Assembly (NCBI GenBank): GCA_003167555.1
Contig: PMSN01000029.1
Coordinates: forward strand, 186,488-237,676
Source: Spartobacteria bacterium
GTDB lineage: Bacteria; Verrucomicrobiota; Verrucomicrobiia; Chthoniobacterales; UBA10450
DNA: 51,189 nucleotides
Reading direction: 5' to 3'
The notes beneath the pieces were generated by a model, which saw only the letters and a program-made list of their open reading frames with translations, searched no databases and had not been told where the DNA came from. Both the position numbers and the translations under genes were made by a program. Positions 47,653 to 51,189 of the stretch are shown here, one piece after another. The stretch's first letter is position 1, and the number at the start of each line of letters is the position of its first letter.

Positions 47653-48241
47653 AGCTTAAGAGACGGCGGTATCTGGATCTGCGTCGGTATCCGCTCTCTT
47701 TGACTAAAACGAACAAATCCGTCAAGACATAATCTCCTTGGTTTTTACTCATGCGCTTGCTTGGTTTCCGCGCTCTTAAAAGGCGCGACGGAGAGCGGAA
47801 ACTCCCTCGGTTTCTTTTGGAGAATTCCACGCGGAAAACGTGGACCGTTAGGCGCGAACGTGAGCGCCCACGCCAGTCTGCACCGGACCGAGATCAATCG
47901 CGTGACGGCGATTTGCGCGGACTGTCGCGCACTCGAATTAGGTCATATATCCCAATTCGCTAGATTCGCACAGATGGCCTCAAGCCTCGCTTGCTCATCA
48001 AAATCAGCCGCGCAATCGCGGGCGCGCGGCATAATCCTAGCCCGCCACGGCTCGACTGATTTGGGGCATCGGCGCTATTGCGTTAACCCAACCCTCCTTT
48101 GCTATGAAGCCGCGCGGGGCCCGGCGCATCCCGCACAAACGCACTCAACTGAGCTGGCGCATCAGAGCAAAAGCGCCACTTGGCGCATTTGGGAGGGTAT
48201 CGGGCTGACCTCCGCTATGCTGCAACTCGCCTGTTGGAATG
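47653..48241. other. Intergenic region with island repeat copy D
   Basis: This 589-bp gap lies between the niacin operon start and the recombinase stop. It contains CGTTAGGC at 47846 and full-length direct repeat copy D (47932-48118). The rest shows no gene that I can support. Confidence 0.5.
47932..48118 (+). repeat. Island direct repeat, copy D
   Basis: A longer full copy: CTCGAATTAGGTCATATATC, AGCCGCGCAATCGCGGGCGC, CCCGCCACGGCTCGACTGAT, TTGGGGCATCGGCGCTATTG, GTTAACCCAACCCTCC and ATGAAGCCGCGCGGGGC. It separates the niacin module from the serine recombinase. Confidence 0.85.
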
Positions 48242-48889
48242 TTACTTTCCCCCTCGGCGCAGTTCCCGTTTGCGTCGCTCGGCGGGACCTCTGGTTAAGG
48301 CGTGAGCTTTTCCGACCGATACCTCCAGTTCAGCCGCCAGAGAACGGTAGCTTGGCCGCGCAGACTTTTTCCGGGCCTGCACGAAGCGTCTCAGTGTCTT
48401 CGTCGCCTTCGTTGAGAGTTGTAGTGCCGGGCGTCCCAGTTTAATGCCCCGCGCCCGCGCTGCGGCAAGACCGGCGAGCGTTCGTTCTCGAATAATGTCA
48501 CGTTCAAATTCAGCGACAGCCATCAAGATATTCATCTGTAGTTTGGCGGCGGAATTGTCGCTGCTCGTGTCGATACCCTGACCCGGAATGACGAGAGCAA
48601 CCTTATTCGCGAGCATCTCACCGATCAGTTGGGCGACGCTGACCAGACTCCGGCCTAGTCGATCCAGTTTATAGCAAAGCACTACGTCCAGTCGGCCTCG
48701 CCGAACTTCAGTCATCATTTTGTCCAAACCCACTCGGGTGAACTTTGCTCCGCTGATCACATCCTCGTATTCAATAACACCATTCCAACCTCGGCGTTTA
48801 CAGATTCCGCGCAGTTCCTGTCGTTGGGCGCTGGTCGTCTGTTTATCGGTACTCACTCGCAGGTAGATCGCAGCTTTCATTTTGCTCAT
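48242..48889 (-). CDS. Small serine recombinase (resolvase/invertase family)
   Basis: The catalytic N-terminal domain has IYLRVSTDKQ with the nucleophilic Ser, YKLDRLGRS and ERDIIRERTLAGLAAARARG. A hinge and a C-terminal HTH (KKSARPSYRSLAAELEVSVGKAHAL) follow, so both parts are complete. ATG 48889 (MSKMKAAIY) or 48880 fits the family; the frame extends to 48916. The 11-bp-arm dyad at 48924-48949 lies just upstream and could be its binding or crossover site. The gene sits between the repeat-delimited island and the integron-like cassettes. Confidence 0.9.
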   Translation of the reverse strand: MSKMKAAIYLRVSTDKQTTSAQRQELRGICKRRGWNGVIEYEDVISGAKFTRVGLDKMMTEVRRGRLDVVLCYKLDRLGRSLVSVAQLIGEMLANKVALVIPGQGIDTSSDNSAAKLQMNILMAVAEFERDIIRERTLAGLAAARARGIKLGRPALQLSTKATKTLRRFVQARKKSARPSYRSLAAELEVSVGKAHALTRGPAERRKRELRRGGK

Positions 48890-48923
48890 CTCACCACTTT
48901 CACAAAGATGCGTCAAGAGACTT

Positions 48924-48949
48924 GTTCATTAAACGAATGTTTTATGAAC
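48924..48949. promoter_or_regulatory. Recombinase site- or operator-like dyad
   Basis: GTTCATTAAAC-GAAT-GTTTTATGAAC has 11-bp arms with one mismatch and a 4-bp spacer. Size and form fit a serine-recombinase binding site (res/crossover subsite). Its position directly upstream of the recombinase gene also fits autoregulation. Confidence 0.55.
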
Positions 48950-49082
48950 TAGTGGATTATCAAATTTCTGCTCCGGAACAGTTTTGCCCCCTTTTTTGAA
49001 CAGGCTGTCACGACTCTTTACCACATGAACTAATTCCCACCCACCACACCCGCGCATCCACGCTTGACTCCCTACATAGGGG

Positions 49083-49622
49083 TTAGACGTTTCTGGTCTC
49101 ATGTGTTTTGTAGTAGCTGACAATCTCTGCGAGGTCGCCGCCTGCCGAACCAGAAAATGAGCGACCGCCGCGCCGCGACAAGTCGGAAAGCAACTGATGG
49201 AATGGATGGCAAGTGACACCCTCGCGCGTGAACACCTCCAACTCATCCGGGTAACGGACGACTCCATGAACGAGATGAAAAGACCAAGTGACGCCGGGCC
49301 AAAGCCGCGCACGCAACTTATCTTTCTCTGGGGCACGAAACTTGGCGTCCACGTACGCACGGGCGCAAACCTCGACCTGCTCAGGTGTACGCTTTCGCAC
49401 ATAGCTGCCTCGGCGCCCAAACTCTGCGACTGGCTCACGTGCGATGTAACCAATGGGGCGGAAACTCACCGTAACCTCGACATGCCGGCCGACAACGCCA
49501 TCGGGCTGAGCACGCACCGCAAGCAAATCCATCTCGCCGAGACCGTGCTTGACGCCACGAATAGTGAAGTAGCCGTCCCGATTGAGCCACTCCTCAACAA
49601 GACTTTCGGCGAGTAATGCCAT
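49083..49622 (-). CDS. Gene-cassette protein of unknown function, nuclease-like
   Basis: The protein (179 aa) starts MALLAESLVEEWLNRDGYFT. GEMDLLAVRAQ followed by HVEVTVSF resembles the D...ExK strand-strand core of PD-(D/E)xK nucleases, but the Lys position is Thr/Val, so activity is doubtful. Its place is typical of an integron cassette: GTTAGGC (49642-49636 on the minus strand) precedes the start codon by 13 nt, and the TAA stop lies inside GTCTAAC, an attC-type R'' sequence. The overlapping frame 48929-49453 has no family features and is rejected. Confidence 0.7.
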   Translation of the reverse strand: MALLAESLVEEWLNRDGYFTIRGVKHGLGEMDLLAVRAQPDGVVGRHVEVTVSFRPIGYIAREPVAEFGRRGSYVRKRTPEQVEVCARAYVDAKFRAPEKDKLRARLWPGVTWSFHLVHGVVRYPDELEVFTREGVTCHPFHQLLSDLSRRGGRSFSGSAGGDLAEIVSYYKTHETRNV

Positions 49623-49635
49623 AACGCGAGGAAAC

Positions 49636-49901
49636 GCCTAACGAGATGGAGCTGAGCCACCGCTGGCGGGAGCGAGCGTGGCAAACATCGAGAACTGTTT
49701 CATAAAATCAAATCTGGTCATCGCGGCGGCCAGCGGTTGGCTCGAGCGAGAGGCTGTGTGATAAGTCGCCGCGGTGCGCAAAATAGGCCAAAACGGACCA
49801 TCGAAACACTCTCAGAGAAAATAAAAACAACTTATAGGTCATTCTCGTGCGTCCGATTTTTTGGCTTGGGACTTATTACACAGCCTCTCGCATGGTTAGG
49901 C
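49636..49901 (-). other. Integron attC site, interrupted by a MITE
   Basis: On the minus strand the site begins GCCTAAC (49901) and ends CGTTAGGC (49636). Without the insert (49746-49891) the arms read TCGAGCCAACCGCTGGC and GCCAGCGGTGGCTCAGCTC. They pair except for one extra A in the first arm, the extrahelical base expected of attC. The end GCTCAGCTC...GTTAGGC resembles the consensus used for attC primers. It links two minus-strand cassettes. Confidence 0.75.
49746..49891. mobile_element. 146-bp MITE with 22-bp terminal inverted repeats
   Basis: The ends (49746-49767 and 49870-49891) are inverted repeats beginning GCGAGAGGCTGTGT, matching at 21 of 22 positions. An inner pair (GCCAAAACGGAC / GTCCGATTTTTTGGC) lets the whole unit fold into one hairpin. 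It codes for nothing. No clear target duplication is seen. It splits the attC between GCCTAACCAT and TCGAGCC. Confidence 0.8.
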
Positions 49902-49937
49902 CCGGATTGTCCATCGAGTGTCGATGTTATCATTTCG

Positions 49938-50861
49938 CTACGGCGTGGCGCGGCTGCTATCGGCCGTCGGATTGTGCTCTCCAAATCGCTTTCGATGCAG
50001 ATAGACGCGCCATCCGTCGATCGCAGCTTTTCGCTCTCGCTCCGATCCTCCATGCACGATCGTGCCGAAGTCTTCCTGCGTGATCTGACTAAGGATCGCG
50101 GCAATGGCGTCCGCCACGACCTTAGGACCGTAGACGCGAAACGGCTCCAAGCCACCGGGCCCGTTCCGTAGCGAGATCTCCTTCACGGGTAACTCACGCC
50201 GGTCATCCATAGACATGATCATGGCGGGAACTGCTGCTTCGCCAAGGGCTTCTAGCTCGGCAAACGCTCGCTTCTCGCTTCGCCGATGGAGCGTTGCTTC
50301 GATCAATGAGCGTACCTTCACATGGGACGGCTCATCCTCGGGACGGAAATTCCGCGCGAAGTCGTCGATAATTTGTTTTTGCGCCAGGGTCTCCACGCGA
50401 ACCTGGCGGATGAGTTCTTCAGAGTACGGCTGAATGGCTTTCGGCGTGTGACCAGCGAAATAAATTTCCGGAGCCCCTGAGATTGTCTGCGTGTCCACTT
50501 GAATCAGGAAGAGGACAGATTGATTGCCGCTCGACTCAACGAGAGTTCGCGGTGCCGGGCTATACCAGGCTGTACGCGTGAAATAACGAACGACTATTGT
50601 TTTAGGACAGGGATCGCCCTTCAGGCACTCCTTAACCCGCACGGGAACGGCGACGTAGTCATGCTGACCGGAGCGCTCCGAATGTTCTATCTGAGCTGCA
50701 GGGACACTCGGAGTGCCGACTACAATCACATGCGACTGCGCAACGAGCTTCCAAAGCTCGTCTGGAGGGGCTGGTTGCGGGAACGTTATTGCGGATGTCG
50801 CGAGACATACGCCGACAATCGAACAAACGGTCAGAGGGAATCGAAAGCTGCGTGCGCGCAT
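49938..50861 (-). CDS. Secreted cassette protein of unknown function
   Basis: ATG 50861 gives about 307 aa with a signal peptide (FPLTVCSIVGVCLATSAITF). The mature part has a domain with HVIVVGTPSVPAAQIEHSE and VRVKECLKGDPCPKTIVVRY, which reads like a small beta-barrel (OB/TIMP-like) with two Cys. A helical C-terminal half follows (AFAELEALGEAAVPAMIMSM, HEAT-like). I cannot name a function. GTTAGGC ends 3 nt before the ATG and an attC start follows the stop, so this is a complete gene cassette. The frame is open to 50879 but that part lies inside the attC. Confidence 0.75.
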   Translation of the reverse strand: MRARSFRFPLTVCSIVGVCLATSAITFPQPAPPDELWKLVAQSHVIVVGTPSVPAAQIEHSERSGQHDYVAVPVRVKECLKGDPCPKTIVVRYFTRTAWYSPAPRTLVESSGNQSVLFLIQVDTQTISGAPEIYFAGHTPKAIQPYSEELIRQVRVETLAQKQIIDDFARNFRPEDEPSHVKVRSLIEATLHRRSEKRAFAELEALGEAAVPAMIMSMDDRRELPVKEISLRNGPGGLEPFRVYGPKVVADAIAAILSQITQEDFGTIVHGGSERERKAAIDGWRVYLHRKRFGEHNPTADSSRATP

Positions 50862-50864
50862 TGG

Positions 50865-50970
50865 GCCTAACGAGAACAAGATGAGCGACGGCCACCGAGA
50901 GCGAGCGCGGCCCGAAGCGAAAGTGGTTTGATCATCGAAAACGTAAGCGCGCGGCGGGTGGCCGTTAGAT
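50865..50970 (-). other. Integron attC site
   Basis: On the minus strand it begins ATCTAAC (50970) and ends CGTTAGGC (50865), matching RYYYAAC and GTTRRRY. The inner arms CGGCCACCCG and CGGTGGCCG pair with one extra C, again an extrahelical base. Length (106 bp) fits attC. The secreted cassette gene starts 3 nt after it. Confidence 0.75.
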
Positions 50971-50996
50971 GCATCGCAGAGATGACATGTAGGGAG

Positions 50997-51031
50997 TTGT
51001 CGGGTGCGGGTTTGGGACCTACACCCGACAA
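50997..51031. other. Hairpin upstream of the IS110-like gene
   Basis: TTGTCGGGTG and CACCCGACAA are perfect 10-bp arms around a 15-nt loop, ending one base before the transposase start codon. It may belong to the left-end non-coding (bridge) RNA that IS110 elements carry, or to a control stem. Confidence 0.4.
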
Positions 51032-51032
51032 G

Positions 51033-51189
51033 ATGAATAAGTGTTGTTTACACACTGAGTTGTCCTCACGAGAGGGAACCCGCTCGGAGTTTAATCCGGG
51101 CCAGAGAACGATCAAGCTTGGAATCGATGTGCACCAGGAGTTTTACGTGGTGGTGGTGCAAGAAGGGGGGAGCAATCCGAAGCCGGCGC
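51033..51189 (+). CDS. IS110-family transposase, 5' part only
   Basis: From ATG 51033 the frame is open to the right edge. After about 27 leader residues it reads TIKLGIDVHQEFYVVVVQEG, the start of the RuvC-like DEDD domain of IS110 transposases (first catalytic Asp in GIDVH). The rest, including the Tnp20 domain with its Ser, is outside. The element lies directly beside the attC at 50865-50970. Some relatives (IS1111-attC group) target attC sites, so this may be such an insertion. Confidence 0.7.
   Translation, partial: MNKCCLHTELSSREGTRSEFNPGQRTIKLGIDVHQEFYVVVVQEGGSNPKPA

Follow-up and report, generated by a model that had tools for sequence, protein, structure and literature searches.

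Mobile elements in the attC sites of a probable chromosomal integron cassette array in a Chthoniobacterales genome

The right-hand end of a 51,189-nucleotide stretch of a Spartobacteria genome (hereafter the window) carries open reading frames separated by palindromes, and an initial annotation proposed that these are integron gene cassettes with attC sites in a probable verrucomicrobial genome, with no integrase in view. Are these sites attC, and if so, what has become of the array? The attC site is defined more by structure than by sequence; the integrase, IntI, folds its single bottom strand, and recombination of this strand lets cassettes be captured, excised and shuffled. From six attC sites of this genome, all lying outside the window, we built a covariance model, with which we searched the 51-kb window. 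At E up to 1 it returned two sites in total, at 49636–49754 (105.5 bits, E 8.6e-25) and 50865–50983 (66.5 bits, E 7.6e-15), both within the stretch where attC sites had been proposed. Rfam gave no match at the gathering score over the window or at E 5 over 48000–51189. The features of this region are as follows.

48242–48916, minus strand: serine recombinase gene (resolvase domain), adjoining the last cassette (PF00239, 135.8 bits; ORF)
49082–49088, minus strand: R'' box GTCTAAC standing alone where an attC has been lost, and holding the TAA of the 179-aa ORF (sequence)
49083–49622, minus strand: cassette ORF, 179 aa, no family (ORF call)
49636–49749, minus strand: attC body (R', L' and L''), with R' at 49636–49642 (covariance model, 105.5 bits)
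49750–49887, no strand assigned: MITE-like element, 138 bp, with terminal inverted repeats starting GAGGCTGTGT, between R'' and L'' (inverted repeat; copies elsewhere)
49895–49901, minus strand: R'' box GCCTAAC belonging to the attC with the body at 49636–49749 (sequence)
49938–50861, minus strand: cassette ORF, 307 aa, no family (ORF call)
50865–50979, minus strand: attC body without R'', with R' at 50865–50871 (covariance model, 66.5 bits, aligned to 50983; boundary near 50980)
ending at 49636 and 50865, minus strand: the two R' boxes, GTTAGGC (sequence)
50980–51189, plus strand: IS110/IS1111-type end with the beginning of its transposase ORF (from about 51033), truncated where the contig stops (genome copies)

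The geometry first described for this region, with two minus-strand genes starting soon after CGTTAGGC and palindromes of attC type, is borne out by the sequence. The ATGs of the 179-aa and 307-aa ORFs lie 13 and 3 nt past the R' ends, as had been suggested, and both ORFs stand between attC sites in one orientation. Cassette stops had been placed at or near R''; this holds for the 179-aa ORF, whose TAA falls inside GTCTAAC at 49082–49088, but the 307-aa ORF stops 36 nt before R''. Neither cassette protein belongs to a family in Pfam, NCBIfam or PADLOC, and the best PDB match of the 179-aa protein reached only E 0.58. Beyond the lone R'' at 49082–49088, the covariance model found no attC body in the window. 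On the minus strand past this box, the 11 nt at 49067–49077 are ATGTAGGGAGT, letters also present at the end of the IS110-type element (50987–50997); this is perhaps a remnant.

Overall, the attC bodies, the R' boxes and the ORF spacing of the initial annotation stood, but one R'' had been misplaced and the inserted elements had been missed. The misplaced box is ATCTAAC at 50964–50970, taken for the start of an attC, which we dropped as an R'' once the model had aligned it into the L'' part; where R'' should stand, the alignment has the IS end. By itself, 50865–50970 folds without an R'-R'' helix, and its stability does not exceed that of its shuffles (z of -0.48 and -0.30). The other attC is discontinuous, its R'' at 49895–49901 being separated from the body by the element at 49750–49887. 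In cassette orientation it reads GCCTAACCATGCGA, next the 138-bp element with its GAGGCTGTGT ends, and after that TCGCTCGAGCC and the body.

The same model recognized at least 22 attC sites across the genome at E up to 0.01, a count that includes the two of the window and the six behind the model and for which 150 of 1076 candidates were scored; a further weak site on contig C25 reached 24.9 bits. In an alignment of 23 distinct attC rows from the genome, pairing holds in 94.2% of the cells, two-sided changes affect 71 cells (26.0 in shuffles) and 13 of the 26 pairs show them, although the alignment was fitted to the model and thereby favors the structure in these figures. Slid structures, the control for the fold, pair in only 20–46% of cells. 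The idea that these sites are dispersed palindromic repeats would suit their being palindromic and multicopy. Against it stand the conserved R boxes, the ORFs starting just past R', the covariation, and the presence of the same sites beside intI genes on contigs C14 and C18. The palindromes behave as attC sites next to ORFs, and we regard the dispersed-repeat explanation as extremely improbable. The claim of an integron cassette array is therefore upheld by two attC sites found by the covariance model, by the cassette ORFs beside them and by covariation.

The integrase itself had been expected to the right of the cassettes or to be absent. Two complete intI genes are encoded in the same genome, on C18 and C14 (472.2 and 465.3 bits, cut-off 265), which supports the integron reading in the way that had been anticipated. 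The two are 68% identical, and on both contigs the cassettes sit between intI and the contig end. Contig C4 has the window at its right end and stops at position 51189 inside the IS110/IS1111-type element; because the contig ends there, an integrase belonging to this array would not be visible. The minus-strand orientation of the cassettes would place the integrase side to the right, beyond that end, where attI and a cassette promoter would be expected as well. With chromosomal (sedentary) integrons the piece shares the attC structure, the ORFs just after R' and a complete IntI in the genome, but it differs in having no intI before the contig end and interrupted attC sites. By analogy, IntI would capture, excise and shuffle the cassettes of this array.

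An attC cluster that lacks an integrase is known as a CALIN, and the window could be a dead remnant of this kind that no longer recombines, a reading that overlaps with a cut-off array and differs from it only in whether the array is alive. In keeping with this, an IS has taken the R'' of one attC, a second holds a MITE, just the R'' remains of the last, and a third intI at the left end of the same contig (C4:1195–1863, minus strand) is a truncated and interrupted C-terminal piece. The two complete intI genes could nevertheless act in trans, and the contig end accounts for the missing integrase. We consider a dead remnant a reasonable possibility, though not a probable one. The third intI is broken inside the conserved GH/KDVSTTMIYTH motif by an insert of about 300 bp through which the frame stays open; the insert carries an 87-aa GIY-YIG nuclease ORF (PF01541, 54 bits), and blastn found no second place for it in the sequences compared.

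Genes for IntI scored above the cut-off in 23 of 39 genomes, this one included, so integrons are ordinary in this order. The guess that the DNA is verrucomicrobial also fits: among the 80 loci listed, the IntI of highest identity (77%) is that of a Candidatus Udaeobacter MAG, followed by Verrucomicrobia and Chthoniobacterales MAGs at 64–71% mixed with other phyla, an assignment that depends on IntI, a transferable gene. The stretch is thus a real integron piece of a known kind with ordinary cassettes. We read it, with considerable confidence, as the truncated end of a chromosomal array of integron cassettes, an array that is being eroded by elements picking attC. These are an element of IS110/IS1111 type lying between R'' and L'', a MITE where the L stem begins, and an IS30-family element that sits inside R'' at other places of the genome.

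The IS110/IS1111-type end in the window, which sits between R'' and the attC body, has stretches of 91, 88, 83 and 92% identity elsewhere in the genome, and its boundary was located by lining up five copies. The copy on C25 encodes a DEDD transposase (PF01548, 40.1 bits, cut-off 29), and its 226-aa ORF matches NF033542 with 94 bits, under the cut-off of 140. Four of the five copies continue with NNNCGATG, as attC sites do, and only two, that of the window and C25:73250, border an attC confirmed by the model. Excerpts of PMC11187229 and PMC12444791 describe the targeting of attC by IS1111 elements as established, and name ISKpn4 and ISPst6 within this group with reference to Tetu and Holmes 2008 and Post and Hall 2009. 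The element resembles them in its DEDD transposase and, in the window and at C25:73250, in its place at one end of attC. It differs in its Verrucomicrobiota-type host and in the small share of copies (2/5) at model-confirmed attC.

The element inside the other attC of the window has the character of a MITE, being short, bounded by terminal inverted repeats, present in several copies and without room for a transposase. Within one mismatch, the terminal repeats are carried by two elements of this genome, each inserted at the same position of an attC; at two to three mismatches there are 14 other matches, to compare with 17 for the reversed control. Searched for exactly, the terminal repeat turns up 12 times among 213 genomes of the order, in 5 of them (0 in the reversed control), and these occurrences make up seven elements, of which the six read whole are 138–149 bp long. 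Five of the seven, from four genomes, share one junction on the R'' side: those of the window, C25, the related genomes G016 and G008, and one of two in G001. Each of the five is directly preceded by R'', then CNN and NCGN. For four of them (window, C25, G016 and G008; weak in C25, at 24.9 bits) the attC model matches immediately past the element, and in G001 the right flank resembles the L'' side and the model gives no confirmation. The second G001 element lies at a contig edge, where its placement with respect to attC cannot be judged, and the seventh element, in G036, is outside attC.

Perfect 4-nt direct repeats flank three of the five elements preceded by R'' (GCGA in G008 and G001, GCGC in C25), and the flanks are imperfect in G016 (ACGA/GCGA) and in the window (GCGA/TCGC). 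At the corresponding place, 15 intact attC sites read GCGA, TCGC, GCGC, TCGA or CCGA. The four attC-sited elements scored for orientation are split, with the window and G016 one way and C25 and G001 reversed, and this occurrence in both orientations favors separate insertions. In the 213 genomes the exact terminal repeat led to no transposase-bearing partner, occurring in the seven elements only, a result compatible with a partner whose ends have changed. The element had no plasmid match (query 49754–49891, 4 bases off the element). MITE-like structures that flank a class 1 integron were described by Gillings 2009, as cited in an excerpt of PMC8618304. Those too are short, end in inverted repeats and are associated with an integron, but they flank it, whereas here the MITE lies inside attC itself at one fixed position.

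When the bottom strand of the MITE-carrying attC of the window is folded, all seven R pairs form and the MITE makes a separate hairpin (z of -5.80). We considered this three-armed fold as evidence for a working MITE-carrying attC and rejected it, since controls in which the MITE letters were shuffled undercut it; the fold is compatible with such a site. In 100 shuffles each, at least six of the seven R pairs were kept 90 times for the window, 87 for C25, 0 for G016 and 69 for G008, the G008 control having been run at a length one base short. At its correct length, 14 of the 18 terminal-repeat pairs form in G008; in the G016 site no R pairs form with or without the MITE.

A third kind of element belongs by its transposase to the IS30 family (NF033563, 285.7 bits, cut-off 80, in the copy of the related genome G003, which has both ends and a complete transposase ORF). 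At the DNA level it was found in 8 of 197 genomes, including this one. Unlike the family at large, its left ends follow the RCC of an R''-like box, and five of eight right ends fall in attC. All nine left ends in this genome come after RCC, as in the R'' box, the last C having been part of the left-end search pattern, in which two mismatches were allowed. Five of the eight right ends continue as NN, R'' and a model-confirmed attC body; the other three (C2, C3 and C21) lie outside a recognized attC, and four of the nine left-end loci (C3, C17, C20 and C21) hold no other model attC. Nine left ends were present in ten loci examined from relatives, seven of them after RYY (exceptions G003, TCC, and G123, GCG), and the model recognized attC in seven of the nine loci. 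CT replaces CC in one of these left ends, which assigns these bases to the target.

The complete G003 copy, flanked by GATCC on both sides, is among those not preceded by RYY, and the model recognized no attC in its locus. In this genome, a simple duplication would demand a 5-mer shared between left and right flanks; the 5-nt flanks of the nine left and eight right ends have none in common, and hence no target duplication is seen there. Eight left and eight right ends at contig ends ought to pair, yet their flanks share no 5-mer; six of nine left flanks end in ACC and none of the eight right flanks does. The unmatched flanks could come from recombination between copies or from a donor flank carried along. 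Within 300 nt of a contig end lie 16 of the 17 IS30 ends of the genome, and 16 of its 58 contig ends fall in the element or no more than 300 nt from one of its ends. IS30-type ORFs were further found twice on one contig of G201 (81 and 69% identity), where a left end follows GCC, and once in G123 (65%), where the right end leads into R'' and a 26-nt partial model match at the contig end, with unequal flanks. On C23 (L033:1499–1613) a shortened copy, reduced to roughly the first 40 bases, lies in an attC-like site that keeps the R' half (21.9 bits with the model). Among plasmids, all 804 matched records were under 60% identity.

Cassette arrays tolerate insertions, and elements might accumulate in attC simply through weak selection on the arrays, with no choice of target. 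The three IS30 right ends outside recognized attC would agree with this, but the same position relative to R'' of five MITEs in four genomes and the RCC before nine of nine IS30 left ends would not, and we think the explanation improbable. Insertion directed to a target, which we infer instead, would probably operate through the conserved R''-spacer-L'' sequence or its hairpin. In the titles and abstract openings of open-licence papers, we found no description of an IS30 element or of a MITE that targets attC; of the three kinds of mobile DNA in attC, two are thus without an earlier description found, and IS1111 is already known. What rises above the ordinary here is the fixed-position insertion of a MITE in the attC sites of this lineage and, probably, that of the IS30 element.

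Taken further, these observations raise the tentative and rather doubtful picture of Chthoniobacterales integrons as hosts of a guild specialized on attC and made up of at least three unrelated kinds, the IS110/IS1111-type element, the IS30 element in R'' and the MITE where the L stem begins, in which a MITE-carrying attC may still recombine, the MITE forming a third hairpin arm and travelling with cassettes. If independent elements converge on the same few attC bases, they would show what enzymes from outside can read in attC. The insertions also show how integron arrays get cut up, and explain why the assembly lost arrays, with contig ends falling in the IS30 element and, for the window, in the IS110-type element. 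Should attC sites with a MITE inside them still recombine, non-coding elements could ride on cassettes and so spread.
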